Virus record (IMG/VR): IMGVR_UViG_3300045968_000421
Span: 1 to 26,938 of that record
Origin: a virus
Reading direction: 5' to 3' (one strand)
DNA length: 26,938 bases
In this document: one piece after another, positions 1 to 17,996 of the stretch
Layout: each line of letters opens with the position of its first letter
How positions within the stretch are numbered: position 1 is the stretch's first letter
The notes under the pieces: generated by a model
The model's database searches: none
Told to the model about the DNA's origin: nothing
What the model saw: only the letters and a program-made list of their open reading frames with translations
Program-made: the position numbers and the translations under genes

Positions 1-2
1 AG

Positions 3-891
3 TTCGGCGACAAGTGGAAGAAGGGAGTCATCGGCACGGCCGGCTTCTCCAAGAAGCTGGCGGACGAGACCTGGGACCAGCTCTGCACCTTTGGCATGTG
101 GGCGTTCAACAAGAGCCACTCGGTGGCGTACGGGATCATCTCGTACTGGTGCTGCTGGCTGAAGGCCCACCACCCCCTGGAGTTCTGCGCCGCCACTCTG
201 GACGCCCTCCAGGACCCAACCAGGCAGATCGACCTGCTCCGGGAGCTCGACCGAGAGGGGATCCGGTACGTGGCCGTGGACCGGGACAACTCCGAGGATC
301 GGTGGGTGGTCAAGGGCAAGGTGCTGGTCGGCCCCTTAACCAACATCAATGGGATTGGCCCTGCCATGGTCATGAAGGTCATGGACGCCCGCCGGGCCTG
401 GGCCTGGTGGAAGGGCCTGACCGACGGCCAGAGGGACCTGGTCATCCCCCGCCTCCCATCGGCAGCCCGCTACCTGGGGGCGAAGGGCTGGATGGACCTG
501 CTCACCCCCTCCTCGAGGGAGAAGCTGGAGGGCGCCATCACCCCGATCGACAGCCTGACCCCGATCCAGGATGCCGCGATCCGCACCCCCGGCTGGGCAG
601 ACATCGTCACCGAGCAGACCAGGGTCGGGGACCTCAAGCCGGGGAGGTTTGCCATGATCATCGGGAGGGTGACGAGGCTCTCGCCAAAGAACGAGAATGA
701 CCCCCAGGCCGTCAGCAAGCGGGGAGGGTACAAGCTCGACGGGCCGGTAGAGTCGTTGAACCATTTAGTCCGGGAACGCGTTCATCGAGAACGGGGTCGA
801 TGCCATCTACGCGATCAAGGGCAATGTGCCACCGGACTTCCGGATGCTCAAGGTCCAGGACGTCAAGTGCCTGTGGAGGAAGGGCGAGTGA
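3..891 (+). CDS. dnaE: DNA polymerase III alpha subunit (DnaE), C-terminal part, frame broken
   Basis: This is the C-terminal end of a bacterial-type replicative polymerase, which extends phage DNA chains; the start lies left of the window. Reading from position 3, the segment FNKSHSVAYGIISYW followed by WLKAHHPLEF is the typical end of the DnaE palm/fingers region. A helix-hairpin-helix-like stretch (INGIGPAMVMKVM) and an OB-fold-like tail follow. The frame starting at 3 stays polymerase-like to about 765. The polymerase-like C-terminus (NAFIENGVDAIYAIKGN, then PPDFRMLKVQDVKCLWRKGE) continues one frame over, from about 769 to TGA at 889-891. The second frame has stops at 748, 757 and 766, so the switch must fall between about 763 and 775. 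It could be a sequencing indel, a genuine lesion or a +1 recoding site. The family is certain; whether the product is intact is not. Confidence 0.85.
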
Positions 892-1100
892 CCGCGGAGA
901 GCATGGTCGCCAAGAGACTGAGGGAGAGGGTGGCCGGCCTTCGCCTTCTGCTCGAGGAGGAGAGGAGGAAGGAGGCCGAGGCGGTCTTGATTAAGTCGGT
1001 CCCCGATGGTCACTGGAAGGAGCGCCACGCCCTCGAAAGGAGAATCGCCATCATTGAGAATGTGATCGAGGCTCTGGACCACTTTTCCGATTACCCCTGA
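888..1100 (+). CDS. small hypothetical protein, 70 aa, coupled to dnaE
   Basis: GTG at 888 overlaps the dnaE stop codon (GTGA), a common coupled arrangement in this genome; ATG at 903 is an alternative start. The product is charged and helical: it is rich in Arg, Glu and Leu (RLRERVAGLRLLLEEERRKE), with a second helix near the end (ALERRIAIIENVIEALDHF). It may form a short coiled coil. It shares its frame with the first part of dnaE, so the two look like one longer open frame. I do not recognise a family. Last gene before the 629-nt gap. Confidence 0.6.
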   Translation: MTAESMVAKRLRERVAGLRLLLEEERRKEAEAVLIKSVPDGHWKERHALERRIAIIENVIEALDHFSDYP

Positions 1101-1365
1101 ATTCGTGCGGTAATCGCGACGATTGCGACATAGGAATATATTGACAAAACGGCACGAACGATCCCGGACGCATATAGGTACGCAAAACTGCTAGTTGCGT
1201 TCTATGACCGTTTATTTGGGTTTTAGACGCAACCCGGTTTTTGGCCCCATTCCGGGCCCCCCTCCCCTCCCCTAGATCCGTGCGTTATCCCCAGCCCTTT
1301 AGGGCTGCCTCAAAAAAAGTCGAAATAAACGCACTCAGGCTCTTTTCTTTTTGTCTTTCATCGTC
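1101..1365 (+). other. gene-free AT-richer segment with hexamer repeats
   Basis: No convincing gene lies here. The left half is markedly more AT-rich than the rest of the window (for example TAGGAATATATTGACAAAAC at 1131-1150). The hexamer ACGCAA occurs at 1180-1185 and 1227-1232, with its reverse complement TTGCGT at 1195-1200. TTCGTGC (1102-1108) is matched by GCACGAA (1152-1158). A perfect hairpin, CAGCCCT-TT-AGGGCTG, sits near 1292-1307. TTGACA at 1141-1146 matches a sigma70 -35 box, but no good -10 lies 16-18 bases on. The stretch could hold promoters, operators or an origin. Confidence 0.5.
1180..1232. repeat. ACGCAA / TTGCGT repeat cluster
   Basis: ACGCAA at 1180-1185, its inverse TTGCGT at 1195-1200 and a second ACGCAA at 1227-1232 lie in AT-rich DNA. 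The first pair forms a dyad whose arms can be extended with AACT/AGTT around a GCT centre. Clustered short inverted copies upstream of a gene block suit a repressor or initiator binding site. No protein is assigned to it. Confidence 0.35.
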
Positions 1366-1371
1366 TATATA
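1366..1371 (+). promoter_or_regulatory. possible -10 box TATATA of the early leader
   Basis: TATATA sits in a short AT-rich pocket just before the purine-rich, hairpin-rich leader. The -35 position at 17-bp spacing is TTTTCT (1343-1348), a weak match. It is placed to start a transcript of about 350 nt of leader ahead of the gene at 1730. This is a weak call based on position and one box. Confidence 0.3.
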
Positions 1372-1379
1372 GAGGGGGA

Positions 1380-1690
1380 AGGAGACAAGAGGGACCAAGA
1401 GGCCCTCACACCCTGGGTGCCCGGGATCAGGCACAACGTCCGGTAGGACCGAAATACCTTCGAACCTGGAGGTAGTACCCCGAGAGGGGGAGTGAGCCAG
1501 GGGAAGAAATGAGGGTCGAGGTTCTGGTTTCCGGCGAGACCGAGCAAGCGGTTTAGGGGCGGGGTCCAAACCTCCCTACGCTAGGCAGCCGGCGACAAGA
1601 GAAAAGAAAGCTCCCCTCCCCCAGCTAGGGGGAGGGGGAAGCTCTAGGCCCTCCCCTAAGAGAGAGAGCCTAGACCTTCCCCCTGGAAGG
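1380..1690 (+). ncRNA. candidate structured 5' leader or noncoding RNA (hairpin chain)
   Basis: About 310 nt without a convincing gene contain at least eight consecutive local helices. They are GAGGG/CCCTC (1389-1393 with 1403-1407); GTGCC/GGCAC (1417-1421 with 1430-1434); GTCC-GGTA-GGAC (1438-1449); TACCT/AGGTA (1455-1459 with 1470-1474); CCCC-GAGA-GGGG with a GNRA loop (1478-1489); GGTTTC-CGGC-GAGACC (1526-1541); GGTTT/AAACC (1550-1554 with 1568-1572); a 10-bp CCCCTCCCCC stem (1613-1622 with 1628-1637) extended by AGCT pairing; TCTAGGC/GCCTAGA (1643-1649 with 1668-1674); and CCTTCC-CCCT-GGAAGG (1675-1690). An unstructured A-rich run with the ribosome-binding site of the 1730 gene follows. 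No known RNA family is recognised. Confidence 0.45.
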
Positions 1691-1729
1691 ACCAACCCTC
1701 AACCAAATCAAAATCAAAGGAACAAGACA

Positions 1730-2416
1730 ATGACGAAGCTCACCACCATGCAGTACGCCCTCATGAACCGCATCGCCCATGACCAGTACAACACCACGAA
1801 CGGCGCCACCCCGACCAAGCATACGGACGTCAACTGCTGGCTGTTCGCTGACGAGTTCGCCGCCGACCTCGGCCTGACCGAGAAGCAGGTCGGCGGCCTC
1901 CTGACCACTCTCCAGGAAGCCGGTCTGATCGAGATGCACATCGACAAGAAGAAGACGACCAAGAACCACACCAACGAGAGCAGCGTGTGGTTCACCGAGG
2001 AAGGCTTCCAGGCCTGGAAGGAAGCAGCCCACGACGCCGGAGACGCGGCCAACAAGGTTGGCCCCAAGAAGAAGGTCGCCAAGAAGGCGGTTGTCGAAAC
2101 CAAGAAGGAAGAGACAGTGACGAACAACGTGATCGACCTCCTCGCCGCCCGCGAGGGCAGCCACAAGCGCATCGCCGCCCAGACCCTCCTCAAGAGAGAG
2201 GGCAAGGCGATCACCATGGCCGACCTGGCCAAGGCAGTCTACGGAGAGCCGGAGTTCACCGGTCAGGTCGGGATGGTGCTCAAGGGCATCGCCAAGGCCA
2301 TCGAGGTCCAGGGCCTGGCCCTGACCCTGACCAGAGAGAAGGGCAGCGTCACCCTCTCCTCCCTCGAGCCCAAGCCGGCCCCGGCCAAGAAGAGCCGGGC
2401 CAAGAAGGCCGCCTAG
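1730..2416 (+). CDS. two-domain winged-helix DNA-binding protein with Lys-rich tail
   Basis: A 228-residue protein, first gene of the rightward block; ATG follows AAAGGAAC at good spacing. Residues 36-95 look like a MarR/phage-replication type winged helix: helix pair FADEFAADLGLTEKQVGGLL, recognition helix LLTTLQEAGLIE, then a basic wing. A Lys/Ala linker (111-126) leads to a second domain at 145-210 with DLAKAVYG (165-172) and VGMVLKGIAK. That second domain is repeated in the protein at 8355. The C-terminus is Pro/Ala/Lys-rich (KPAPAKKSRAKKAA), like histone H1 or HU tails. A DNA-binding or transcription-regulating role is inferred. Its position directly after the structured leader suggests it is the lead product of the early block. 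Confidence 0.75.
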   Translation: MTKLTTMQYALMNRIAHDQYNTTNGATPTKHTDVNCWLFADEFAADLGLTEKQVGGLLTTLQEAGLIEMHIDKKKTTKNHTNESSVWFTEEGFQAWKEAAHDAGDAANKVGPKKKVAKKAVVETKKEETVTNNVIDLLAAREGSHKRIAAQTLLKREGKAITMADLAKAVYGEPEFTGQVGMVLKGIAKAIEVQGLALTLTREKGSVTLSSLEPKPAPAKKSRAKKAA

Positions 2417-2423
2417 TCACCCA

Positions 2424-2452
2424 GCCCCTTCCCTCTCCTCGAGGGAAGGGGC
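2424..2452 (+). promoter_or_regulatory. intergenic hairpin, 11-bp stem
   Basis: GCCCCTTCCCT (2424-2434) pairs perfectly with AGGGAAGGGGC (2442-2452) around a CTCCTCG loop. It lies right after the stop of the 1730 gene. There is no T run after it, so it is unlikely to be a simple terminator. It may stabilise the upstream mRNA end or act as a processing site. It resembles the first hairpin of the three two-hairpin elements downstream but lacks their second hairpin. Confidence 0.6.
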
Positions 2453-2493
2453 ATCGTCGTCAGAAACAACAACCAACCAAAGGAACTTTCGAA

Positions 2494-3267
2494 ATGACCG
2501 ACAGCATGGACAAGATCATCGCCCGGGTGCAGAAGCTGCTCAACCTGGCCGGCAACAACCCCAACGAGAATGAGGCAGCCGCGGCGGTAGAGAAGGCCCA
2601 CGCCATCCTCGCCGAGCACAACCTCGACATGGCCCACATCAAGGCCTCCTCCCTGGACAAGGAGCCGGAGGACATGCTCCGGACCAACCTGGACATCGAG
2701 ACGAAGATCAAGATCAAGTCGTTCTCGTGGCTCTGGAACGCTGTGGCCAAGGCCCACTTCTGCAAGCTCTACCAGCGGACCAACCACAAGGGTCACAAGG
2801 TCTACACCTTCGTGGGTCGGAGGATCAACACGATCGTCGCCGCCCAGATGGCCCAGTACCTCTCGACCACCGTGTGGCGGCTGATGAGGGAGGAGGCCAA
2901 GAGGGTCGAGGCAGAGCGCCCGGGCGCCGGCTTCAAGCCCACCGGGGCACTCAACTCCAACTTCGTGACCAACTTCGTCGAGGGTGCGGTTCACCGGCTG
3001 ATGAAGAGGCTCAAGGAGATGGAGACGAGCGGAGCCCAGGAGAACGCCCTGGTGCTCTACAACGCGGACGAGGCCAAGCTCAACGAGGCATACATCCGGG
3101 AGCAGCTTGGCATCCGCCTCCGGGCAGGAAGGAACTCTGGCAACGCTCGGCACAACTCCGACGCCTACGCCAGGGGAGACAGGGCCGGTGGGAACATCAG
3201 CCTCAACCAGCAGGTCTCCGCCTCCTCCCCCAAGCCGGCGGTCGGCAACACGAGACTGCTCAAGTGA
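2494..3267 (+). CDS. DUF2786-type protein
   Basis: A 257-residue protein of a family common in phages and some bacteria; its function is unknown. The N-terminus (MDKIIARVQKLLNLAG, then NEAAAAVEKAHAILAEHNL) is the DUF2786 signature. The middle is a basic alpha/beta region with aromatic residues (FSWLWNAVAKAHFCKLYQ, then VYTFVGRRIN). The C-terminus (AYARGDRAGGNISLNQQV) is the conserved family tail. The start ATG at 2494 is chosen because CCAAAGGAAC precedes it; upstream in-frame codons belong to the other-frame shadow of the previous gene. It is probably cytoplasmic. The next small gene is translationally coupled to it. Confidence 0.85.
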   Translation: MTDSMDKIIARVQKLLNLAGNNPNENEAAAAVEKAHAILAEHNLDMAHIKASSLDKEPEDMLRTNLDIETKIKIKSFSWLWNAVAKAHFCKLYQRTNHKGHKVYTFVGRRINTIVAAQMAQYLSTTVWRLMREEAKRVEAERPGAGFKPTGALNSNFVTNFVEGAVHRLMKRLKEMETSGAQENALVLYNADEAKLNEAYIREQLGIRLRAGRNSGNARHNSDAYARGDRAGGNISLNQQVSASSPKPAVGNTRLLK

Positions 3268-3353
3268 ACGAGCTCCTCGTTGCTCTCTGGTGCATGGTCC
3301 CGGTAGCGACCGGGGTCATGCTCTTCTTAATCGCCCTGATGATCGGGGCATAA
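3264..3353 (+). CDS. 29-residue membrane peptide
   Basis: GTG at 3264 overlaps the previous stop (GTGA). The product is essentially one hydrophobic helix (LLVALWCMVPVATG, then VMLFLIALMIGA), predicted to sit in the inner membrane. It was found by coupling and hydrophobicity, so confidence is moderate. The next gene has its own ribosome-binding site 10 nt after the stop. No function is assigned. Confidence 0.5.
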   Translation: MNELLVALWCMVPVATGVMLFLIALMIGA

Positions 3354-3376
3354 CCCAAAGGAAAGGAACTACGGAA

Positions 3377-3925
3377 ATGGACGATCTAATAGGCCGGCTC
3401 GAGAAGCCGGAGGACGCCCAGCGGTTCATCTTCGCTGGCAACGCCATCGTTACGCTCAGGTCGGTCAAGACCGGGACAAGGTTCACCTACAAGATCGCCA
3501 AGAAGGAGGAGGAGGGCAAGAACGACGTGTTCTTCGTCAACCTCCTCTCCGGCCCGGACAACACCTCCGACTACATCTACCTCGGATGCTTCTGGGGAAG
3601 GGACAGGGCCTGGCGACACGACAAGAAGGAGCGCGTGGCCTACGACGCTCCCTCTGCCGCCGCCTGGCGCTTCTTCATCAAGCAGCTCGATGGACTCTCC
3701 TTCCACGAGGCCTTGGAGGTTTGGCACGAGGGAAGGTGCTGCCGCTGCGGCAGGCTCCTGACCGTGCCCGAGAGCGTCAAGTATGGCATCGGACCCGAGT
3801 GCGCGGGGAAGATGGGCCTCAAGTTCAAGGCCGAGGCCGTCCAGGACGAGTTCGATGCGGCGGCGCCAAGGAAGGCTCCTCCCCCGCACCCGGACCTCCG
3901 GCTGATTAAGGGAGACGAGTCATGA
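3377..3925 (+). CDS. DUF6011-type protein with C-terminal cysteine motif
   Basis: A 182-residue protein. The N-terminal part (about 1-105) is alpha/beta and includes VTLRSVKTGTRFTYKIAKK and a YIYLGCFWGR strand, a layout seen in phage proteins of unknown role. Residues 117-142 carry the motif H-x3-CC-x-CGRLLT, then GIGPEC. The four cysteines (C121, C122, C124, C142) and H117 are candidate zinc ligands. This is the hallmark of the DUF6011 family, as I recall it. ATG at 3377 follows AAAGGAAAGGAAC. Its stop overlaps the next start (ATGA). A nucleic-acid-binding role is a guess. Confidence 0.75.
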   Translation: MDDLIGRLEKPEDAQRFIFAGNAIVTLRSVKTGTRFTYKIAKKEEEGKNDVFFVNLLSGPDNTSDYIYLGCFWGRDRAWRHDKKERVAYDAPSAAAWRFFIKQLDGLSFHEALEVWHEGRCCRCGRLLTVPESVKYGIGPECAGKMGLKFKAEAVQDEFDAAAPRKAPPPHPDLRLIKGDES

Positions 3926-4131
3926 GCGAGATCCGATACGTGGAGGTGACGCGGAGGCGCCGCCCCAACCACATCCTTCACCTTCTCCTCTCCCTCGTGA
4001 CCCTGGGCTTCTGGCTCCCAGTCTGGCTCCTCCTCTCCATCTTCATGGGAGGGAGCGAGACCCTGGGGAGCAAGCCCCGCCTGATCATGGCCGCCGTGGC
4101 CATGGTCATCATCTACATCTTCACCCGATAA
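3922..4131 (+). CDS. small two-helix membrane protein
   Basis: A 69-residue protein coupled to the previous gene by ATGA. A basic N-terminus (RYVEVTRRRRPNH) is followed by two hydrophobic helices at about 17-42 and 53-67, with GGSETLGSKPR between them. The positive-inside rule puts the N-terminus in the cytoplasm. It resembles small phage and bacterial inner-membrane proteins but no family is certain. Confidence 0.7.
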   Translation: MSEIRYVEVTRRRRPNHILHLLLSLVTLGFWLPVWLLLSIFMGGSETLGSKPRLIMAAVAMVIIYIFTR

Positions 4132-4151
4132 CCAATAAGGAACGAAACGAA

Positions 4152-4424
4152 ATGAGCAGAACCATCCTGGCCCGCGCGGCCCTCCCCTCGAAGAGGGGGA
4201 ACCAAGAGGCCGACATCATCCTGGTCGCCCTCGATCACAACGAGGTCACCCCCTACGTGACCTGGCAGCACAACCTCGAGGACGAGTCGACGTACTGGGG
4301 CCACTACCACGCCACGTACTCCGAGGCCCTGACAGAGTTCCACGAACGCTGCCGGAGAAAGGGAGCCTTCGTATACGAGAGCGCCCACGTCTGCGTGGCT
4401 CGTCCATCCTTTGAGGAAGCATGA
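4152..4424 (+). CDS. hypothetical protein, 90 aa
   Basis: ATG is preceded by AAGGAACGAAACGAA, the A-rich ribosome-binding leader seen across this block. The product is mixed alpha/beta, with a core strand (ADIILVALDHNEVTPYVTW) and an aromatic stretch (STYWGHYHATYSEALTEF). This fits small phage proteins that read like a regulator or modifier, but I cannot name a family. Its stop is followed after one base by the first two-hairpin element. Confidence 0.65.
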   Translation: MSRTILARAALPSKRGNQEADIILVALDHNEVTPYVTWQHNLEDESTYWGHYHATYSEALTEFHERCRRKGAFVYESAHVCVARPSFEEA

Positions 4425-4425
4425 A

Positions 4426-4487
4426 GCGAAACCTCCCTCGAGGGAGGTCACCCGTGACCATGGCTGGCCGGGTCTGATGAGCAAGCC
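4426..4487 (+). promoter_or_regulatory. two-hairpin RNA element, copy 1
   Basis: It starts GCGAAACC just after a stop codon. Hairpin 1 is the palindrome CCTCCCTCGAGGGAGG (4432-4447). Hairpin 2 pairs ACCCG (4450-4454) with CGGGT (4469-4473), with an inner CCA/TGG. The tail TCTGATGAGCAAGCC matches copies 2 and 3. The second hairpin differs from theirs in length and loop, so this is the most divergent copy. It precedes the ribosome-binding site of the protease gene at 4509. Confidence 0.65.
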
Positions 4488-4508
4488 CAACCCTAAAGGA
4501 ACTAACAA

Positions 4509-5381
4509 GTGACGAAGATGATAAGAGCGGCGATGGCGGCCTGCGCGGCCCTCGCCCTCACTTCAACCGCGCAGGCAATCGAAATCTATCCGATGAAGGA
4601 GTTCTCGACGAGCATCTACATCACCGGCAACATAGAGTACGGCGACGAGGCCTTCCTGCTCAAGGTGCTCCAGGAGCGCCAGGGCAAGGGACAGGCCACG
4701 GAGTTCGCGGTGCTCAACTCCCCCGGAGGCAATATGCACGCCGGCATGGAGATGGCCCTGCTCATGAAGGGCTGGGGGATCAAGACGGTGGTTGGGGCAG
4801 ATGAGGCGTGTGCCTCCGCCTGCATGCTGATGTACGCCGGAGGCGTCCAGCGCTATGCCTGGCGGGGAGCCCTGCTGGGGGTCCATGGAGCATCGACCAC
4901 CATCAACGGCTACACGGAGGACACCGGAGACGGCACCGTGAGGCTGGCCAAGATGATGGCCTTTCTTGGGGCTCCCGACTCGGTCATCGCCCTCCTGGTG
5001 GTCACCTCCTCAGACGACATGACCTGGCTCGACAACCAGGCAGTCCAGGGCTGGGTTCAGCTCCTCGATCCTCGCAACGAGCAGAGAGAAGAGCAGCAGA
5101 CCACGACGACGACGACGACGACGACCGGCAACAAGAACATGACCTGTCGATCGACCGAATCAGGGATCGTCTATCAGGTCACGCTCGGAGACGCGAACAT
5201 CGTCGTCAACGGCAAGCTCTATCAGGTCAACGAACAGCACGCCGCCACCAAGGAGACTGGGGCGTGGGTGGCCACCGGGCCGACCCGGTGGGGCAAGTAC
5301 GGGGCAGTGTTCTACGGTCCCAATCCGAGAATGGCATTCATCAACACCAAGGGCGAGAAGGCAGTGGATCGCTGCTGGTAG
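4509..5381 (+). CDS. exported ClpP/crotonase-like serine protease
   Basis: A 290-residue protein with a signal peptide (1-23, cleavage after AQA), so probably periplasmic. GTG at 4509 follows TAAAGGAACTAAC; ATG at 4518 is an alternative. The ClpP/crotonase fold is supported by the oxyanion-type NSPGG (70-74), CASACMLMYAGG (101-112) with likely nucleophile Ser103, and GVHGAS with likely catalytic His126. This is the pattern of COG3904-type periplasmic proteins. A Thr9 linker encoded by an (ACG)7 run joins a small C-terminal beta domain with two cysteines. An exported protease in an early block could act on the host envelope or block superinfection; that is inference. The substrate is unknown. 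Confidence 0.75.
   Translation: MTKMIRAAMAACAALALTSTAQAIEIYPMKEFSTSIYITGNIEYGDEAFLLKVLQERQGKGQATEFAVLNSPGGNMHAGMEMALLMKGWGIKTVVGADEACASACMLMYAGGVQRYAWRGALLGVHGASTTINGYTEDTGDGTVRLAKMMAFLGAPDSVIALLVVTSSDDMTWLDNQAVQGWVQLLDPRNEQREEQQTTTTTTTTTGNKNMTCRSTESGIVYQVTLGDANIVVNGKLYQVNEQHAATKETGAWVATGPTRWGKYGAVFYGPNPRMAFINTKGEKAVDRCW
5103..5123 (+). repeat. (ACG)7 trinucleotide repeat
   Basis: Seven perfect ACG units inside the protease gene encode most of the Thr9 linker between the protease-like domain and the C-terminal domain. Copy-number slippage would change linker length without breaking the frame. Confidence 0.9.
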
Positions 5382-5405
5382 CCCACAACCCTCAAAGGAA
5401 AGAAA

Positions 5406-5855
5406 GTGACGAAAATGAGAAACTCAATCGTAGCGGCGTTCGGCGCCGTGTTCGCAGTCGCCATCCCCCAGAAGCTCATCGTGTTCCTGGAGACCCCCTC
5501 CGCTCACGCGGGCTTCGTCAAACCAAACGAGCCCGCGGCTCAAAAGGGAGACAGGCTGGTCAGGGCCGGGGTCATCGGCCCCGTCCCCTCCTACGCCCTG
5601 ACCCTGACCCACGCCAACGGCCTGACGACCAAGGTAGTGGAGGGCCAGCCATACGCCGACTGCCGGATCCTGGCCTCGGCCTACGTCAGCGAGAACAACG
5701 TGCTCATCGTCCAGCAGCCGCTGGGCAATGTCCGCGTAGTCCCGATGGACATCAAGGTGTCCTGCGTAATCGACGGGGTCCTGCCCTTCCCTCCAGTCCT
5801 TCCGGAGACGGCTCCCCTGCCGACGCCCAGGGACGAGAATGCCCCATCGTTCTAA
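5406..5855 (+). CDS. exported hypothetical protein, 149 aa
   Basis: GTG at 5406 follows AAAGGAAAGAAA; the N-terminus MTKMRN mirrors that of the protease before it. A hydrophobic segment (8-28) leads to a plausible signal cleavage site after SAHA (about residue 36). Two cysteines in the mature part (YADC and KVSC) could form a disulphide, which fits the periplasm. The C-terminus is Pro-rich. It sits 24 nt after the protease gene, so the two probably form an exported pair. No family is recognised. Confidence 0.65.
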   Translation: MTKMRNSIVAAFGAVFAVAIPQKLIVFLETPSAHAGFVKPNEPAAQKGDRLVRAGVIGPVPSYALTLTHANGLTTKVVEGQPYADCRILASAYVSENNVLIVQQPLGNVRVVPMDIKVSCVIDGVLPFPPVLPETAPLPTPRDENAPSF

Positions 5856-5859
5856 AAAA

Positions 5860-5920
5860 GTGAAACCTCCCCTCGAGGGGAGGTAGTCGCGGGGTGGTGC
5901 CCGCGGCCTGAAGATCAGCC
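5860..5920 (+). promoter_or_regulatory. two-hairpin RNA element, copy 2
   Basis: GTGAAACC leads into the palindrome CCTCCCCTCGAGGGGAGG (5866-5883). A second hairpin follows: GTCGCGGG (5886-5893), loop GTGGTG, CCCGCGGC (5900-5907), with one G-T pair. The tail CCTGAAGATCAGCC ends just before an AAAGGAAAGGAAC ribosome-binding site. The second stem differs from copy 3 at several positions while the loop is identical. Confidence 0.75.
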
Positions 5921-5939
5921 AAAAGGAAAGGAACCCAAA

Positions 5940-6155
5940 ATGGCGATGACTACACGAGACCATTACATTCTCGCTCAGGCCCTCTACGTGGCCTCGAGGG
6001 AGATGGCCAAGGAGAAGTGGCCCGAGCTCTCCAACATCGAGGACATGAAGCGCCTGCTCGACGAATACTTCCCGAGCTTCAAGGCAGTGTTCGAGAGCCA
6101 GGAGAGGAACCGGGCAGAGGCGATCGCGGCCTCCGACAAGGAGACTGCGGAATGA
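5940..6155 (+). CDS. hypothetical protein, 71 aa
   Basis: ATG follows AAAGGAAAGGAACCCAAA. The product is a small, acidic, helical protein (HYILAQALYVASREMAKEKW, then EDMKRLLDEYFPSFKAVF). It is first in a run of four coupled small genes and its stop overlaps the next start (ATGA). No family is recognised. Confidence 0.65.
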   Translation: MAMTTRDHYILAQALYVASREMAKEKWPELSNIEDMKRLLDEYFPSFKAVFESQERNRAEAIAASDKETAE

Positions 6156-6514
6156 CCTGGACCCTGGAGACGAAGGAGGGGCGCGCCTACGCGGGGCGCC
6201 TCATCAAGGAAGTGCTCAAGGTCATCACCGGCGACGAGCCGAACATCGAGACCGGGGAGGGAGAGGGACAGGGGGAGGTATCCTTCGAGAACCTCTTCGT
6301 CCTCGGCCAGGAGGACGGCTATGCCATAAGCTACGCCGTAGAGGTCCCGGCCACCAGGTGGGAGCCCTCTGGCGTGGACATCGTCGAGGTGGCCGTCGTC
6401 GCCTCCCTGGACGAGGCCATCGAGCTGGCCCTCAAGACCCACCTCTGCCAACTGGTCGACGTGGCCCTGGAGGGAGAGCGCATGGTGAGCCTAGTAGAGG
6501 AGGAGCAGTCGTGA
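6152..6514 (+). CDS. hypothetical protein, 120 aa
   Basis: ATG at 6152 overlaps the previous stop. The protein is acidic (IETGEGEGQGE) and alpha/beta, with alternating strands (GYAISYAVEV, GVDIVEVAVVA) and a closing helix (LDEAIELALKTHLCQL). It ends by overlapping the next start (GTGA). No family is recognised; it is probably cytoplasmic. Confidence 0.65.
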   Translation: MTWTLETKEGRAYAGRLIKEVLKVITGDEPNIETGEGEGQGEVSFENLFVLGQEDGYAISYAVEVPATRWEPSGVDIVEVAVVASLDEAIELALKTHLCQLVDVALEGERMVSLVEEEQS

Positions 6515-6699
6515 TCACCCCGGAGATGTACCAGAACGCCAAGGACAGGATCGAGCATCTCGAGCGGGAGCTTCGACAGTGCCAGGAGATCGGCAACAAC
6601 CTGATCGTAGAGAACGTCCAGATCAAGGCCGAGCTCGACCGGGTCAATTCGGAGCTGGAGGGATGGAGGAGGGCCAAGACGTGGGCAGACACTCCCTGA
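6511..6699 (+). CDS. small coiled-coil protein, 62 aa
   Basis: GTG at 6511 overlaps the previous stop, with GAGGAGGAG just upstream. Nearly the whole product is one amphipathic helix with heptad-like spacing (IEHLERELRQCQEIGNNLIV, then IKAELDRVNSELEGWRRAK), so it should form a coiled-coil dimer or oligomer. Such small proteins are common in phage early regions. No specific role is assigned. The next gene starts inside its 3' end. Confidence 0.6.
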   Translation: MITPEMYQNAKDRIEHLERELRQCQEIGNNLIVENVQIKAELDRVNSELEGWRRAKTWADTP

Positions 6700-6968
6700 T
6701 CCTCCTCCTGGCCCTGGCAGGAGCCTCGCCAGCCGCAGGGAAGGACCTTCCCCGCAGTCAGGAGCCCCCACCCCCTCCGCGGCCCTTGGTGACCGTCCCT
6801 GCGGAGGCCTTTGCCCATCCCGGATCGCCTCGGACCAGGTGGAGGAGCACCAACCAGATCATCGAGGAGTATCGAACCCCCGGAACCGGGCGGTCGGACT
6901 TCGTCGACCAGAGAGGGAGAAGGATCGATTGCTATCGGTCATTCACCGGAAGGGTAGACTGCCGATGA
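6681..6968 (+). CDS. small secreted protein, 95 aa
   Basis: GTG at 6681 follows GGAGGAGGG at 8-10 nt and gives a compact signal peptide (GRHSLILLLALAGASPAAG, cleavage near residue 20). ATG at 6663 would add six residues in front. The mature part is Pro-rich at first, then basic, and ends with two cysteines (RIDCY and VDCR) that may pair in the periplasm. It overlaps the previous gene by 19 nt and the next by ATGA. It is the third exported product of this block. Confidence 0.6.
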   Translation: MGRHSLILLLALAGASPAAGKDLPRSQEPPPPPRPLVTVPAEAFAHPGSPRTRWRSTNQIIEEYRTPGTGRSDFVDQRGRRIDCYRSFTGRVDCR

Positions 6969-7141
6969 TGATCCCGATCTGGAGGACCAAGGACGGTAGG
7001 CTCATCCCGGTCAACCAGATGAGCGAGTCGCACCTCCGCAACTCCATCAACCTCATCCTCCGATCTGGTGGCCGGTGGAGGGGGGATCAACTGAATGGCC
7101 TCCTGATCGAACTCGAGATCAGGAGGATCACCGGACGATGA
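6965..7141 (+). CDS. small phage protein with WxTKDGRxIPV motif, 58 aa
   Basis: ATG at 6965 overlaps the previous stop. The sequence IWRTKDGRLIPVNQMSESHL, then a helix around NSINLI, matches a pattern I recognise from many short phage proteins of unknown function (W-x-TKDG-x-x-IPV-x-x-M-x-x-x-HL). The remainder is basic and helical. The stop codon is followed at once by the third two-hairpin element. Confidence 0.6.
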   Translation: MMIPIWRTKDGRLIPVNQMSESHLRNSINLILRSGGRWRGDQLNGLLIELEIRRITGR

Positions 7142-7203
7142 GCGAAACCTCCCCTCGAGGGGAGGTCGTCACGACGTGGTGGTCGTGACCTGAATGAGCA
7201 GCC
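7142..7203 (+). promoter_or_regulatory. two-hairpin RNA element, copy 3
   Basis: GCGAAACC leads into CCTCCCCTCGAGGGGAGG (7148-7165), identical to copy 2. The second hairpin is GTCACGAC (7168-7175), loop GTGGTG, GTCGTGAC (7182-7189), a perfect 8-bp stem. The tail CCTGAATGAGCAGCC ends 21 nt before the next ATG. Compensating stem changes relative to copy 2 support a paired RNA form. Confidence 0.75.
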
Positions 7204-7224
7204 AACACCGAAGGAGCATACGGA

Positions 7225-7605
7225 ATGAAGAAAATTTCAAAGGGCGACGTTTCCAAGCTTGAGGAGATCGTGGCCGATCTTACCAGCAAGAAGACGGATG
7301 TCGAGACGGCAATCGAAAAGGCCAACGAGGCCATCGTGGAGGCCAACGCCGCCATCGAGGAGTACAACGGCCATCTGGAGGAGGCCGAGGCTCTCCGCGA
7401 CTCGGTGGTCGGAGCCATCGAGGAGTACGTCGGAGACAAGTCGGAGAAGTGGCAGGAGGGCGACGCCGCCGCCTCCTACGAGGACTGGAAGGGAGAGTGG
7501 GAGGGCATCGACTTCTCCGAGGTCGATCCGATCGAGGAGCTGACCGCTCCGGACATGGACCACTCCTCCGAGCTCGAGGGCCTGCCCCAGGAGGTATCGC
7601 TGTGA
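7225..7605 (+). CDS. coiled-coil protein, 126 aa
   Basis: ATG follows GAAGGAGCATACGG. Residues about 8-70 form a long heptad-type helix rich in Ala, Glu and Lys (IVADLTSKKTDVETAIEKAN, then EAIVEANAAIEEYNGHLEEA). The rest is acidic and largely disordered, with Asp and Glu clusters and a Trp pair. A cytoplasmic, oligomeric protein is expected. The next gene is coupled by GTGA. No family is recognised. Confidence 0.65.
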   Translation: MKKISKGDVSKLEEIVADLTSKKTDVETAIEKANEAIVEANAAIEEYNGHLEEAEALRDSVVGAIEEYVGDKSEKWQEGDAAASYEDWKGEWEGIDFSEVDPIEELTAPDMDHSSELEGLPQEVSL

Positions 7606-7880
7606 GACTGGTCAATCTGGAAATCAATCCCCTCGACGCGGGAGGGATAAGGGTCAAGGCAATCTCCCGGTTCTCCGGGGAGGAGCACGAGATGGTCCTG
7701 CCAATGTCCCTGGACGAGTTCGGCAAGGCCCTCGAGGACTGGGAAGCCAGGAGGGTCCCCATCCAGGAGGCCTTCCCGACGCTCACCGATCAGCAGCGGG
7801 AGTTCCTCATGACGGGGAGCACCCAGGAGGAATGGGACAAGGCATTCCCGGAAGACGATGAGGACGAGAAGGGAGACTGA
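7602..7880 (+). CDS. conserved phage protein, AFP..REFL.TG..EEWD type, 92 aa
   Basis: GTG at 7602 overlaps the previous stop and follows GGAGG. The N-terminus is a beta-rich stretch (LVNLEINPLDAGGIRVKAIS). The C-terminal half (IQEAFPTLTDQQREFLMTG, then EEWDKAFPEDDED) matches a motif I have seen in many small phage proteins encoded among replication-region genes. Function is unknown. The acidic tail could interact with a basic partner. Confidence 0.65.
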   Translation: MRLVNLEINPLDAGGIRVKAISRFSGEEHEMVLPMSLDEFGKALEDWEARRVPIQEAFPTLTDQQREFLMTGSTQEEWDKAFPEDDEDEKGD

Positions 7881-7881
7881 T

Positions 7882-8211
7882 GTGAAGGTAACGATCGAGT
7901 TCGACGCCGACGAGGAGACGGTCCAGAAGGTTCTGGCCCTCCTCTCCGGGAAGCCGGCGACGATCCCTCCCCTCGAGGGGAGGCCAAAGCGAAGGAAGGC
8001 CGGTCACCCCTACCGGGGAGACAAGGGACTGGTCGATGTCATATTCGGCATCGTCAACGACAGGGGAGGAGAGGCCCGCCTGTCCGAGATCAAGCGAGAC
8101 GTGAGAAAGCTCAAGGCCTGGAAGACGACCAGCATCTCCGCGGCCATCCACATCCTCAAGCGATCCGGGAAGCTGGCCAAAGCCAACGGGGTCTACACGA
8201 TCCAGCACTAG
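7882..8211 (+). CDS. winged-helix-like protein, 109 aa
   Basis: GTG at 7882, one base after the previous stop, follows GGGAG; the ATG at 7880 runs straight into TGA. A short N-terminal alpha/beta part (VKVTIEFDADEETVQKVLAL) and a basic linker (RPKRRKAGH) precede a winged helix. Its helices are VDVIFGIVN, LSEIKRDVRKL and TSISAAIHILKRSGKL, and the wing strand is KANGVYTI. It is probably DNA-binding. The linker codons at 7966-7983 spell the same 18-bp palindrome as element hairpin 1. It is the last gene before the terminator at 8269. Confidence 0.7.
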   Translation: MKVTIEFDADEETVQKVLALLSGKPATIPPLEGRPKRRKAGHPYRGDKGLVDVIFGIVNDRGGEARLSEIKRDVRKLKAWKTTSISAAIHILKRSGKLAKANGVYTIQH

Positions 8212-8220
8212 AGTTGGAAG

Positions 8221-8246
8221 GGGGGAGGGCTCTTAACCCCTCCCCC
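8221..8246 (+). promoter_or_regulatory. hairpin upstream of terminator, 9-bp stem
   Basis: GGGGGAGGG (8221-8229) pairs perfectly with CCCTCCCCC (8238-8246). No T run follows directly. It stands 22 nt before the terminator stem and may protect the 3' end or support termination. Confidence 0.55.
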
Positions 8247-8268
8247 TCATCGAGCTCTAATTGCTCGG

Positions 8269-8298
8269 GAGAAGGGACAATAGTCCGCTTCTCTTTTT
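8269..8298 (+). terminator. rho-independent terminator
   Basis: GAGAAG-GGAC (8269-8278), loop AATA, then GTCC-g-CTTCTC (8283-8293) with a single bulged G, followed by TTTTT. This would end the transcript of the 7225-8211 genes or lower readthrough into the gene at 8355. Confidence 0.75.
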
Positions 8299-8354
8299 CT
8301 CTGATCTGGCCTAGTCTGGTCAGGTCACCCAACGTCATCAGAAGGAGTTAAAAC

Positions 8355-8924
8355 GTGACGAAACTGCAAGACGAAATCAATGCCATGACCTCTACGGCCC
8401 AGCTGGTCGGGTTCTACAACCAGATCGCCAACGATCACGACAAGCCTCAGGTCAAGAGGTTCAAGACCATAGAGGAGGGGCGCGACAAGGCGTACCATCT
8501 GGCCTGGACCCTGGGCCTAGACGAAGAGGCTCCAGGCGCCGGCAACACCGAGGAGGAGGCCACCGAAGCCAAGCCCAATGGCGGGAAGGCCAAGGCCCCT
8601 GCCAAGGCCAAGGGGAAGGCAGCCAAGCCGGCCAAGGAGAAGGAGCCCAAGGAGAAGGCCGCCAAGCCGGCCAGGGAGGACCAGGAGAAGGGACCTCTCG
8701 ACACCCGGGTGGGAACCCACAAGCACAAGGTCGTCGAGCTCCTGCTAGCCTCCAATGGCAAGGGGGTTGGCCTGAAGGACCTGGCCAAGAAGGTCTACGG
8801 ATCGGAGGAGAGCCTCGGCAACGTCAAGATGGTGCTCAAGGGCGTCAAGAAGAGTTGCGACGAGAACCCCAGGTTCAAGTTCTCGATCGACAAGGAGACT
8901 GCCTCCCTGACCAAGGTTCGCTAG
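8355..8924 (+). CDS. winged-helix protein with H1-like Lys/Ala-rich linker
   Basis: A 189-residue protein. GTG at 8355 follows AAGGAGTTAAAAC. Residues 11-52 (STAQLVGFYNQIA, then VKRFKTIEEGRDKA) match a motif of phage and plasmid proteins that often begin with TxxxLVxxYN. Residues 71-112 are a Lys/Ala/Pro-rich linker resembling histone H1. Residues 121-187 repeat the C-terminal domain of the 1730 gene: HKHKV, KDLAKKVYG and NVKMVLKGVKK align directly. It is probably a nucleoid- or transcription-acting DNA-binding protein. It starts a new segment after the terminator. Confidence 0.75.
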   Translation: MTKLQDEINAMTSTAQLVGFYNQIANDHDKPQVKRFKTIEEGRDKAYHLAWTLGLDEEAPGAGNTEEEATEAKPNGGKAKAPAKAKGKAAKPAKEKEPKEKAAKPAREDQEKGPLDTRVGTHKHKVVELLLASNGKGVGLKDLAKKVYGSEESLGNVKMVLKGVKKSCDENPRFKFSIDKETASLTKVR

Positions 8925-8956
8925 GGACGAATGACGTCTGGAAAGGAAGGTCGAGA

Positions 8957-9220
8957 ATGAAGGACGAAGTCCGCTTCTCTCCAAGCGAGAAGAGAATGCT
9001 CGCCATCCTCGAGAAGGAGAGCGAGCCGATCGCGACGACTGACCTAGCGCCGAAATTCTACAAGGGTCGAAAGGGTGGCACGCCGGAACACGCCGTGTCC
9101 ACCGTCGTCTCGGTATCGAGAGCCCTGGAGAAGAAGACGGCGAGAGGGTTCCCATTCAAGGTGCGGAGATCGGAGAGGGCGGGACCCTATCCGATCAAGG
9201 TCTGGATCGATCGAAAGTAA
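8957..9220 (+). CDS. small winged-helix protein, 87 aa
   Basis: ATG at 8957 follows AAAGGAAGG. The sequence SEKRMLAILEKESEPIATTD, then LAPKFYKG, a helix VSTVVSVSRALEKK and a basic wing (FPFKVRRSERAGPYPIKVWI) read as a compact winged helix. The TTDLAPKFYKG stretch resembles DLAKAVYG and DLAKKVYG of the 1730 and 8355 proteins, so the three may be related. It is likely DNA-binding and lies 32 nt after the 8355 gene. Confidence 0.7.
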   Translation: MKDEVRFSPSEKRMLAILEKESEPIATTDLAPKFYKGRKGGTPEHAVSTVVSVSRALEKKTARGFPFKVRRSERAGPYPIKVWIDRK

Positions 9221-9226
9221 ACCAAA

Positions 9227-9250
9227 GGGGCGGGGAATGACCCCCGCCCC
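9227..9250 (+). promoter_or_regulatory. GC-rich hairpin before the helicase gene
   Basis: GGGGCGGGG (9227-9235) pairs perfectly with CCCCGCCCC (9242-9250) around AATGAC. AAAACC rather than a T run follows. It lies between the 8957 gene and the helicase start, so an attenuating or mRNA-stabilising role is possible. Confidence 0.6.
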
Positions 9251-9277
9251 AAAACCATGGAAAAAGGAACGAGAGAC

Positions 9278-10741
9278 GTGAAGAAGTACAAGCCGAAGAG
9301 GAAGCCCAGAGCCCACCAGGCAGAGGCCCTCGACAACATGAAGGGAAGGGAGGCGTACGGCCTGTTCATGGCCATGCGCACCGGCAAGACCAAGACGACC
9401 ACCGACGACTTCGGCAGGCTGTGGGCCGCCGGCGAGGTGGACGACTTCCTCCTGATTGCTCCCGCCGGGGTCTACAAGACCTGGCCAGAGGAGATGGACA
9501 AGGACCTGGACCCCCTCCTCGAGGGAGAGCTGGACAAGCTCCTGTGGGGCTCCGGCTCCTCCAAGACTGCCAAGGGGGAGGAGGCCATCGACGAGTTCAT
9601 CGCCAGGAGGAAGAAGGGCGACCGTCCTCGGGCCATGTTCATCAACGTCGAGGCCCTCTCCACGGTGGAGAGAGCCCAGCGGCTGGTCTCGGAGTTCGTC
9701 CGGCAGCGCCGCTGCTACGTGGCCATCGACGAGAGCACCAGCATCAAGGAGGGAAGGAGCAAGCGAAGCAAGTTCCTGATCACCAAGGTTGCCCCCTTTG
9801 CCACGTACCGCCGGATCCTGTCCGGCCTGCCCACTCCCCAGAGCCCGCTGGACATCTACGCCCAGTTTGCCTTCCTCCAGCCCCAGAAGCCGCTGGGCTT
9901 CTCTTCCTTCGTCAACTTCCGGGCCCGGTACGCCGTGGTCCGGAGACAGCAGATGGGTGCCCGGTGGTTCGACCTGATCGTCGGCTATCGGTTCCAGGAA
10001 GAGCTGGCGGAGAAGATCAGGGACCATAGTTTCCGGGTCACGCTCGAGGACTGCTACGACCTCCCCGAGAGCGACTATCAGATCAGGCACGTTGCCCTGA
10101 CCAGGGAGCAGAAGGACGTCTATGGTCAGCTTCGAGACAGGGCCGTGGCCGTGCTCTCCGAGACGGAGAAGGTCACTGCTGATCTGGTCATCACCCAGCT
10201 GCTTAGGATGCACCAGGTGCTCTCCGGGGTGGCGGTCGACTCGACTGGGAAGATGCACGCCATCCCGGAAAACCGCACGGGCGAGCTGTTGGACCTCCTC
10301 GAGGAGTACGACGGCAAGGCCGTGATCTGGTGCGCCTACGACGTCTCCGTCCGGCAGGTCGTCGAGCAGCTCGAGAGGAAGTACGGCGAGGGCTCCGTCG
10401 CCCGGTTCTGGGGAGGCAATGCCAACACCCGGGAGGAGGAGGAGAGGGCCTTCAAGAACGATCCCGAGTGCCGGTTCATGGTCGCCACCGCGGCGGCCGG
10501 GGGAAGGGGAAGGACCTGGAGCGTCGCCGACCTGACCGTCTACCACTCCAACACCCACAACCTCGAGCACCGATCCCAGAGCGAGGAGCGGGTCAAGGGC
10601 ATAGGCAAGGAGAGCCGGGCCCTCTACGTCGATCTCGTCTCCCCTGGCACGGTGGACGAGAAGATACTCATGAGCCTGAAGAACAAGATCAACCTGGCGT
10701 CGATCCTCACGGGCGACGAGTGGCGAAAATGGGTGGTGTGA
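9278..10741 (+). CDS. SNF2-type DEAD/DEAH superfamily helicase
   Basis: A 487-residue ATP-dependent DNA translocase of superfamily 2. GTG at 9278 is chosen because AAAAAGGAAC sits 8 nt upstream, as for other genes here; ATG at 9257 lacks such a site. Motifs in order: Q-like HQAEAL (13-18), Walker A AMRTGKTKT (32-40), motif Ia LLIAPAGVYKTW, motif II DEST (151-154, where DEAH is usual), motif III SGLPTPQSPLDIY (from 182), motif V ATAAAGGRGRTW and motif VI SQSEERVKGIGK. The usual second arginine of motif VI (QxxDRxxRxGQ) is Gly here. This gene type is common in phage replication regions, where it probably remodels DNA for replication, recombination or transcription. The next gene overlaps by one base. 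Confidence 0.88.
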   Translation: MKKYKPKRKPRAHQAEALDNMKGREAYGLFMAMRTGKTKTTTDDFGRLWAAGEVDDFLLIAPAGVYKTWPEEMDKDLDPLLEGELDKLLWGSGSSKTAKGEEAIDEFIARRKKGDRPRAMFINVEALSTVERAQRLVSEFVRQRRCYVAIDESTSIKEGRSKRSKFLITKVAPFATYRRILSGLPTPQSPLDIYAQFAFLQPQKPLGFSSFVNFRARYAVVRRQQMGARWFDLIVGYRFQEELAEKIRDHSFRVTLEDCYDLPESDYQIRHVALTREQKDVYGQLRDRAVAVLSETEKVTADLVITQLLRMHQVLSGVAVDSTGKMHAIPENRTGELLDLLEEYDGKAVIWCAYDVSVRQVVEQLERKYGEGSVARFWGGNANTREEEERAFKNDPECRFMVATAAAGGRGRTWSVADLTVYHSNTHNLEHRSQSEERVKGIGKESRALYVDLVSPGTVDEKILMSLKNKINLASILTGDEWRKWVV

Positions 10742-10923
10742 TGACGAGCGAGCACAAGAGAATGAGAGACGGGTTCGCCGCCGCGGTGGAGGAGGTGCTC
10801 AGGGCCTCCCTCGTGGCGGGGGAGAAGATCGAGAGGCGAGAGAACCTGATCGAGATCAGGTTGCCGACCGTCGCCTTCAATGTCATTGTAACGATCAAGA
10901 GGGGGAGCCTGGTCGATGGCTAA
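10741..10923 (+). CDS. hypothetical protein, 60 aa
   Basis: ATG at 10741 shares one base with the helicase stop (TGATGA). The N-terminal two thirds form an amphipathic helix (EHKRMRDGFAAAVEEVLRAS). The end is a pair of strands (LIEIRLPTVAFNVIVTIKRG). It may be a helicase partner by position only. Its end overlaps the next gene by 8 nt. Confidence 0.6.
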   Translation: MTSEHKRMRDGFAAAVEEVLRASLVAGEKIERRENLIEIRLPTVAFNVIVTIKRGSLVDG

Positions 10924-11245
10924 CAGGAAGAAGATCGTCGGGACCCTGGTCGTCATCGGAGTCGATGGCAAGATAGAGGAGAGGCCGATCGAGGTCGGGG
11001 ACGTGGCCAAGGAGGTTCGCGCCGTCCTCGACGATCACCTGGAGGCGGTTCCGTACTTCTCCCAGTACAAGGGGAAGAGGTGCGTCGCCTTCTGCGGGGA
11101 GAACGGCAAGAGGAAGGGCCTGGCCCCGAACCTGCTGGCGACTACCATATGGCAGCTGGAGTTCCCCCCTCCCCACAACCAGGACTACATCGCCGGACCG
11201 GTGGCCATCGTCCACGGGCCGGCCAACTTCATGAGGGCACTATGA
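10916..11245 (+). CDS. DUF3846-like protein
   Basis: A 109-residue protein. The N-terminal strand pair (IVGTLVVIGVDGKIEERPI), a middle FCGENGKRKGLAPNLLATTI and the end YIAGPVAIVHG follow the DUF3846 pattern of a small phage protein (NExGkxxGLPxNxxAT, then GpvvivG). The function is not established. ATG at 10916 follows GGGGGAGCC. Its stop overlaps the next start (ATGA). Confidence 0.7.
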   Translation: MANRKKIVGTLVVIGVDGKIEERPIEVGDVAKEVRAVLDDHLEAVPYFSQYKGKRCVAFCGENGKRKGLAPNLLATTIWQLEFPPPHNQDYIAGPVAIVHGPANFMRAL

Positions 11246-11694
11246 CATACTACCCGAAGACCTACGAGGAGGTCGAGGCCCTCTGCAGGGAGGTCCACTC
11301 CCTGCTCGACCAGGCCCTCGCCGAGGGCTGGCGGGCACAGGCCAGGGAGAGCCATACCGTCGCCGATATCCTCTCCCGGAAGGGGGAGGAGGACAGCATC
11401 GAGGGCGGGCTGATGTGGGACGACTTCGTGATCCTCCGCCTGCTCCAGAGCATGGCCAGGGCGGACGGGGCCTCGTACCCCCTGTTCTGCATCACCCGAC
11501 ACACCGCCGCAGCGGGCGAGCTGATGAGGCTCTCCCCCCACTACCCCTTGGAGAGGGCCAAGAACGTTCGAATCGAGGAACGGATCTGGGCCATGGACCG
11601 CCTCGCCCACGGGGAGAGACTGGAGCACCCCAACGACGTCACCCCCGGCCATGCCAGGATGTTCTTTCGAGACTTCAAGGCGAGGCGAGGGTGA
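11242..11694 (+). CDS. hypothetical protein, 150 aa
   Basis: ATG at 11242 overlaps the previous stop. The protein is largely helical (YEEVEALCREVHSLLDQALA, then DDFVILRLLQSMARADGA) with aromatic and histidine-rich loops. No catalytic signature is clear. It is coupled on both sides. No family is recognised. Confidence 0.65.
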   Translation: MTYYPKTYEEVEALCREVHSLLDQALAEGWRAQARESHTVADILSRKGEEDSIEGGLMWDDFVILRLLQSMARADGASYPLFCITRHTAAAGELMRLSPHYPLERAKNVRIEERIWAMDRLAHGERLEHPNDVTPGHARMFFRDFKARRG

Positions 11695-11894
11695 AGGACT
11701 ACGACGACCCAGCAATTCGAACTCTTGTCGTCCGGGCCATGGCCTCGGTCTTAATCTCCTCCCAGGTCGACCTCTCCGACGAGGTGGCCTGCTGGAGGAG
11801 GCTGGTTAGGGCGGGGTTCTCCAGGGAGAGCATCGGGGACGTCCTCCCCGAGATCCGATCCACCTGGAGGAGAAAAGGGGGGAGGTCTCGATGA
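11691..11894 (+). CDS. hypothetical protein, 67 aa, last gene of rightward block
   Basis: GTG at 11691 overlaps the previous stop. The product is helical (IRTLVVRAMASVLISSQVDL), with a basic C-terminus (IRSTWRRKGGRSR). Its final codons lie inside the first arm and loop of the terminator that closes the block. No family is recognised. Confidence 0.6.
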   Translation: MKDYDDPAIRTLVVRAMASVLISSQVDLSDEVACWRRLVRAGFSRESIGDVLPEIRSTWRRKGGRSR

Positions 11895-11910
11895 GGCTTC
11901 CCCCCTTTTT
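11873..11910. terminator. bidirectional rho-independent terminator
   Basis: AAAAGGGGGG (11873-11882) pairs with CCCCCCTTTTT (11900-11910). Read rightward, the stem ends in a T run; read leftward, it also ends in TTTT. It lies between convergent units and overlaps the end of the last rightward gene, so it can stop both transcripts. Confidence 0.8.
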
Positions 11911-12256
11911 CGTTTCTAGAAAGCCCGCAGGGGAGGCTCGCCAGAAGCCGCCGCGGGGTCCCGGGCCTCCTACCACGTCCCTGCCCCTTGGTGCGGCCTG
12001 GCGAGCGGTCCCTACAGGCTGGCGAGGCATTTTCCCCATTTCCCCTCCATCTGGTGCGCATCCTGGCGGTCCGAATGCCCGGCCGGGGTACTATCCCCAG
12101 GGCCCGTGCGCCAGAAAGGGGCTCCCCCTCCCTCGAGGAAGGGGAGCCAGGGAGGTCCCCGGGACAGCCTATTCCCCGGGGACCGTGGGCCAGATGGCTC
12201 GAGGGAGGAGAAGCGTCGGCCCATGGGGAGAAGGAGCTTTTACCCCAAAGACGCTC
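11911..12256. other. convergent intergenic region with hairpins
   Basis: No gene is supported across about 345 nt. It holds a perfect 10-bp hairpin, GGTCCCCGGG (12154-12163) with CCCGGGGACC (12175-12184), and an 8-bp stem, GGCTCCCC (12120-12127) with GGGGAGCC (12141-12148). Read leftward, that 8-bp stem is followed by CCCTTTCT. It also holds a spaced inverted repeat, GCTCGCCAG (11937-11945) with CTGGCGAGC (11998-12006). These may help end the late transcript or protect its 3' end. Confidence 0.6.
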
Positions 12257-12952
12257 TCAGGCCCCAGGCACCTTCCCCACCTCTTCCCCCTGGGCATCGA
12301 GCAGCTTGACCTCGATCGGGGAGTCGGAATAGACGGCGATCAGGTACGAGTTGTTCGGCTCCGGCTTGGGGGTCGGCACGGGCTCCTCTACGGACGCCGC
12401 CTTGATCGCCTCGAGGAAGGTCCTGTGGTAGCCGGCGATCTGCTCGTCGCAGTCGTTGCCGTTAACGATCTGCCGGGCGTTGACCGGGTCGTCGTCCTCC
12501 TCGTTGAAATACTGGTCCAGCTTCCTCCCGGTGAACCAGCCCTCCGCCATGCCCCTGAACGTCACCCTAGAGGCGATCAGGGAGTCGAGCGCCATCTCGG
12601 GGTGCGCCACCAGGTCCCGCTCGTCGATAAGGCCGAGCTGGTCGGAGGCATTTCGATAGTTGGTCTCCCAGGTCAGCATCACGAAGCCGCGGCCGATGTA
12701 CGGCCAGTACTCCTTGCCCTGCAGATACTCGTCGGAGCCGTACTCGGTGATCGGCCACATCCGAAAGGCGGTCTCGTGGTAGGCGGTCGCCAGAATGTAG
12801 GCGAGCCACCGAATGTCGGTCATCTCCCCTCCGGCGACCTGATAGTCCCAGACCGCTAGGATGACGTTCTGTCCGTCGACCTGGATCTGCTCCATTGATC
12901 CGGAGAAGAGCTCGGCCCTGACGGCATCGAAATACACGTCCCTGTCAATCAT
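12257..12952 (-). CDS. GH19 chitinase-like endolysin
   Basis: A 231-residue peptidoglycan hydrolase that would cleave the host cell wall at lysis. The core matches the GH19/lysozyme-like type: LATAYHETAFRMWPI (55-68) with the likely catalytic Glu60, YIGRGFVMLTW (about 84-94) and GWFTGRKLDQYF. DPVNARQIVNG follows. A Pro-rich linker (about 189-200) joins a short C-terminal beta segment that could bind the wall. There is no signal peptide, so release needs a holin; a holin-like gene lies just upstream. Its start overlaps the 39-residue membrane gene by ATGA. Confidence 0.85.
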   Translation of the reverse strand: MIDRDVYFDAVRAELFSGSMEQIQVDGQNVILAVWDYQVAGGEMTDIRWLAYILATAYHETAFRMWPITEYGSDEYLQGKEYWPYIGRGFVMLTWETNYRNASDQLGLIDERDLVAHPEMALDSLIASRVTFRGMAEGWFTGRKLDQYFNEEDDDPVNARQIVNGNDCDEQIAGYHRTFLEAIKAASVEEPVPTPKPEPNNSYLIAVYSDSPIEVKLLDAQGEEVGKVPGA

Positions 12953-13262: not shown

Positions 13263-13275
13263 GGTTCGATTCCTT

Positions 13276-13782: not shown

Positions 13783-13791
13783 CTCTCCCTC

Positions 13792-14331: not shown

Positions 14332-14334
14332 TCG

Positions 14335-17035: not shown

Positions 17036-17049
17036 TGGTCGTCTCCTTC

Positions 17050-17988: not shown

Positions 17989-17996
17989 CTCTCAGG

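Follow-up and report, generated by a model that had tools for sequence, protein, structure and literature searches.

Type II hammerhead ribozymes predicted in three early intergenic gaps of a phage genome

Several ribozymes flank single genes or short blocks in the clustered prophage hammerheads of Agrobacterium tumefaciens (a triple around ardA), Azorhizobium and Clostridium scindens (PMC3088659). Perreault et al. (2011) proposed that hammerhead clusters cut polycistrons and showed cleavage for similar clusters, in vitro with the tandem sets from three hosts and in E. coli with that of A. tumefaciens (PMC3088659). HHphage of the haloviruses HF1/HF2 lies directly upstream of an early gene and has a variant core, and a mapped mRNA 5' end falls no more than 3 nt from its cleavage site (PMC3088659). 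According to a 2017 review, the role of prokaryotic hammerheads is an open question (PMC6155905).

We analysed a stretch of 26,938 nt that makes up a whole virus record (IMGVR_UViG_3300045968_000421; hereafter the window). The original prediction had placed a repeated two-hairpin element on the + strand at 4426-4487, 5860-5920 and 7142-7203, with a shared layout and gaps of 1, 4 and 0 nt to the preceding stop codons; all of this holds. It knew of no named family with this form. However, all three elements match a family of self-cleaving RNAs described in 2011, Hammerhead_II of Rfam (RF02276), with covariance-model scores of 60.8, 48.7 and 44.6 bits (gathering score 37) and E-values of 1.7e-10, 2.6e-7 and 3e-6 (cmscan of the whole window against all 4227 families). 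The elements and their neighbouring genes are as follows.

4152..4424, + strand, ORF of 90 aa; its TGA ends 1 nt before copy 1
4424..4491, + strand, hammerhead copy 1 (RF02276, 44.6 bits; parsed alignment): stem II 3' half 4426-4427; GAA 4428-4430; stem III 4431-4448, loop UCGA; C17 4449; stem I 4450-4473; core CUGAUGA 4474-4480; stem II 5' half GC 4481-4482; tail AAGCC
4509..5381, + strand, protease-like protein (phrog_26024, E 3e-8), first gene after copy 1; GTG start behind AAAGGA
5406..5855, + strand, second gene between copies 1 and 2; no family match; its TAA ends 4 nt before copy 2
5858..5924, + strand, hammerhead copy 2 (RF02276, 48.7 bits): stem II 3' half GU 5860-5861; stem III 5865-5884; A17 5885; stem I 5886-5907; core CUGAAGA 5908-5914; stem II UC (U10.1.U11.1 mismatch); tail AGCCA
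5940..6155, + strand, 71-aa gene, first after copy 2; behind AAGGAAAGGA
7140..7207, + strand, hammerhead copy 3 (RF02276, 60.8 bits): stem II 3' half GC 7142-7143; stem III 7147-7166; C17 7167; stem I 7168-7189; core CUGAAUGA 7190-7197, with one A inserted after A6; stem II GC; tail AGCCA
7225..7605, + strand, 126-aa gene after copy 3; no family match; behind GAAGGAG

The rest of the record holds no fourth copy and the window no tRNA, and neither the window nor copy 3 has a nucleotide match among GenBank phages. Positions 12257-26938 form a leftward structural block of a tailed phage, with a tail fibre, a baseplate hub (E217 gp41-like) and a tape measure, the latter with relatives in Pam3, Aminobacter phage Erebus and Rhizobium phages.

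Each element reads, from 5' to 3', stem II 3' strand (GC or GU), G12 A13 A14, stem III closed by UCGA (A15.1...U16.1), H17, the predicted cut, stem I with its loop, C3 U4 G5 A6 N7 G8 A9, stem II 5' strand and the tail AGCC. Alignments, folds and the parse agree on the type II permutation, with stems I and III closed by loops and stem II open (2 bp). The GAAAC and CTGA..GA letters outside the hairpins, which the original prediction did not recognise, are the invariant catalytic core. This core (i.e. CUGA-N-GA, GAA, A15.1-U16.1 and H17) is complete in copies 1 and 2 (N7 is U and A), fully canonical in copy 1, and canonical in copy 3 save for the extra A after A6 (CTGAATGA). Copy 2 has N7 = A, A17 and a U10.1.U11.1 mismatch instead of the G10.1-C11.1 closing pair of copies 1 and 3. 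None of the three copies has a G at position 17, and the cuts are predicted between 4449 and 4450 (copy 1), 5885 and 5886 (copy 2) and 7167 and 7168 (copy 3).

Folds predict stems III and I in all three copies. Stem III is an exact palindrome in each, as had been noticed for the first hairpin; it reads CCTCCCCTCGAGGGGAGG in copies 2 and 3 and is shorter by one pair in copy 1. The stem I stretch of copy 1 differs from those of copies 2 and 3 and is longer; its pairing is short and irregular (five outer pairs, then an inner 3-bp hairpin), and the folding energy of the whole copy 1 element is no better than that of shuffled sequences (z -0.14). In the minimum-energy fold of copy 2, CUGA is paired with UCAG, which would occupy the core.

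These features can be set against the known systems. The window shares with RF02276 the permutation, the core, the 2-bp stem II, the GUGGU-type loop I and the AGCC pseudoknot, as well as the position between phage genes and several copies per genome (PMC3088659). It departs from the family in the U10.1.U11.1 mismatch with A17 of copy 2 and the A inserted after A6 of copy 3, but the mismatch and an insertion after A6 have both been reported, the former as the best tolerated mismatch and the latter with low activity (PMC3088659). As judged from these letters, copies 2 and 3 probably cleave more slowly than a fully canonical core. Compared with the clustered prophage hammerheads, other genes and other phages are involved, and cleavage is shown there but predicted here (PMC3088659). 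HHphage differs in belonging to an archaeal virus and in having its insertion near C3 rather than after A6 as in copy 3 (PMC3088659).

No RF02276 match occurs in any of 14 control genomes, which together with the cmscan E-values excludes chance. Family identity, layout and covariation mark the three elements in the rightward early block of this tailed phage as type II hammerhead ribozymes, and we consider it likely (probability about 0.8) that they self-cleave and split a polycistronic early mRNA. The original prediction was right that the element acts as RNA, and of the roles it offered, that of a processing site appears to be the correct one. The copies are ordinary members of this class and so open no new kind; the leading functional idea is already known too.

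Selection on pairing had been proposed from copies 2 and 3, whose second stems differ while the loop GTGGTG is identical, and this part stands. Several stem I pairs are changed on both sides between the two copies, and the strands stay paired in copy 2 (GUCGCGGG/CCCGCGGC), in copy 3 (GUCACGAC/GUCGUGAC) and in a diverged relative, contig L126 (GCCGGGGGA/UUCCCCGGC). The covariation across phages was assessed on 121 instances picked by core letters only, regardless of pairing; a larger set of 190 instances was not used here because it had been selected for pairing. Among the 121 instances, stem I positions 1-7 are paired in 97-100% (shuffled means 50-91%), with up to six pair types, and stem III is paired in 79-98% (shuffled means 46-64%), above shuffles at all five positions tested. 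Stem III sequences are entirely different in other phages, and the pairing is kept.

A pseudoknot between loop I and the tail is usual in the type II class (in the majority, with 4 bp or more). By inspection, loop I pairs with the tail as GGCU/AGCC in copy 1 and as UGGU/GCCA (one G.U) in copies 2 and 3, the latter being among the commonest pairings in the phage instances, while L126 has a perfect pseudoknot, AUGGCUU/AAGCCAU. On average, loop I/tail complementarity amounts to 4.37 bp against 4.15 +/- 0.03 with tails shuffled among instances; the difference is small since AGCC is the tail of most instances. Changed pairs are the strongest evidence, i.e. swaps from UGGU/GCCA to UCGC/GCGA or GGGGU/ACCCC and the pairing of L126. 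Since loop I and tail are complementary and change together, the bound loop of the original prediction is most simply explained by this pseudoknot: the constraint on loop I most likely reflects pairing with the AGCC tail rather than a bound protein.

Two relatives bear on the distribution of the copies. With 99.5% identity over an overlap of 12.1 kb, contig L124 (43.7 kb) represents the same phage; it contains the same three ribozymes and no other. In protein searches it is the only relative found for the protease-like gene, while the helicase also finds L126 (89% aa identity to the window; 66-83% nucleotide identity in other aligned blocks). L126 contains one hammerhead (1764-1831, 38.6 bits), which immediately precedes the L126 orthologue of the gene that starts at 7225 in the window. 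The L126 hammerhead has the position of copy 3 but the U.U/A17 core of copy 2, and its stem I is different.

L126 lacks the protease-like gene (4509), the gene at 5406 and copies 1 and 2. Copies 1 and 2 therefore lie on either side of a block of two genes whose presence varies among relatives. In addition, stem III is letter-identical in copy 2 (5865-5884), copy 3 (7147-7166) and L126 (1771-1790), and the neighbouring sequence has diverged; this identity could reflect gene conversion or an extra constraint.

The layout of the window, in which a stop codon, the ribozyme, a Shine-Dalgarno sequence and a start codon follow each other, is the phage norm. In the core-letter set, 107 of the 121 instances start within -6 to +12 nt of the upstream stop codon, most often at 0. 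In the larger set, stop-codon adjacency holds for 147 of 190 instances compared with 8% of random positions, and a Shine-Dalgarno sequence and start codon lie within 70 nt downstream in 153 of 190 compared with 24% of random positions.

A single long transcript probably contains the ribozymes: a scan, which is a weak test in a GC-rich phage, finds nothing promoter-like on the + strand of 1-12500 and nothing terminator-like on that strand where the ribozymes lie. In such a polycistronic early mRNA, each element would fold (stem III, stem I, a 2-bp open stem II and the loop I/AGCC pseudoknot) and cut itself 3' of H17. This would leave the upstream mRNA with a 2',3'-cyclic phosphate just behind the stem III hairpin, ∼25-30 nt past the stop codon. 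The 5' end of the downstream mRNA would be a hydroxyl borne by the stem I hairpin, ∼55-60 nt before the start codon, and the ribosome-binding site would be free. Cleavage would yield products of ∼1436 nt (4450-5885) and ∼1282 nt (5886-7167) in addition to flanking pieces. All of these would be capped by hairpins, and so decay rate and dosage would probably be individual to each product mRNA. A 5'-hydroxyl end is not recognised by 5'-phosphate-sensing enzymes such as RNase E and RppH. We infer that the type II arrangement, with stem III at the upstream 3' end and stem I with the 5'-hydroxyl at the downstream 5' end, would protect both products because the hairpin ends are stable and the new 5' end is a hydroxyl. 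Cleavage might also be coupled to translation, because a ribosome that terminates at the adjoining stop codon would sit on GAAAC.

Other explanations were weighed against self-cleavage. The identity of the GUGGUG loop in copies 2 and 3, despite their different stems, could point to operators read by an RNA-binding protein, without self-cleavage. However, unrelated phages throughout RF02276 share GUGGU as the loop I consensus, this loop changes in step with the tail, and the invariant letters are those of the core, outside the loops. On these grounds the operator reading is rejected as the main explanation, and we consider it very improbable. Transcription terminators or a dispersed palindrome acting at the DNA level (centred on CTCGAG), unrelated to RNA catalysis, would agree with the perfect stem III palindrome and with its same sequence in copies 2, 3 and L126. 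But the + strand has no T run, as had been correctly observed, the letters conserved outside the palindrome are the hammerhead core, and stem III sequences vary elsewhere with pairing kept, so that this is the least credible of the alternatives; the terminator reading was rejected for its missing T run.

A more serious doubt concerns copies 2 and 3 only, which might be attenuated or decaying: they would either persist as hairpins with a stabilising or insulating effect on mRNA or cleave slowly, so that only a fraction of the transcripts is cut. The low activity in the literature for an insertion after A6, as in copy 3 (PMC3088659), and the U.U mismatch with A17 in copy 2 are consistent with this view. 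Yet core and H17 are otherwise intact in both copies, and both stems are paired through compensatory changes. Moreover, unrelated phages have the form with U.U and A17, as does the diverged relative, at the same gene boundary; the CUGAAUGA form is shared by two further contigs, which likewise keep their stems paired. The variant cores therefore look maintained rather than decaying, and we regard attenuation as a possible but rather unlikely account of these two copies. Self-cleavage by type II hammerheads remains the preferred reading.

The variant core of copy 2 was followed across the wider data set. U10.1.U11.1 occurs with A17 in all eight distinct sequences, from three unrelated groups, in a scan that allowed A, C or T at position 17 (i.e. 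window 5858-5924, L126 1764-1831 and L129-L138). With G10.1-C11.1, A17 occurs in 7 of 170 sequences, most of these seven coming from a scan aimed at A17. The pattern suggests a possible compensatory coupling in the catalytic core, and we know of no report of it.

A strict type II pattern scan found at least 120 stretches in viral contigs and at least 119 in bacterial genomes. Contig G003 (IMGVR_UViG_3300017605_000570; L127) has 24 type II hammerheads within 7.6 kb (9932-17520, - strand); 22 of the 23 intervals between them hold one ORF whose stop lies no more than 3 nt from the next ribozyme, and most starts lie ∼10 nt after the previous one. This 24-ribozyme contig and the U.U/A17 coupling merit more attention than the three copies of the window. 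Tentatively, and with low confidence, type II hammerheads might generally punctuate the gene ends of phage early operons, with as many as one ribozyme per gene, as in G003. Each would abut a stop codon, so that terminating ribosome and ribozyme compete for the same nucleotides, and slow-core forms (U10.1.U11.1 with A17; insertion after A6) might be kept to set the fraction of transcripts cut, the window phage being one case with two tuned copies. This idea of mRNA punctuation is directly testable, given the tight stop/ribozyme/start layout across phages, the array of 24 copies and the linked variants of the core. Other phage records (L128, L065, L082, L110, L122 and L006) contain 6-11 type II hammerheads each, and in a hammerhead class of the form CCGAAAC...CUGANGAUG, position 10.1 looks like an extra U.
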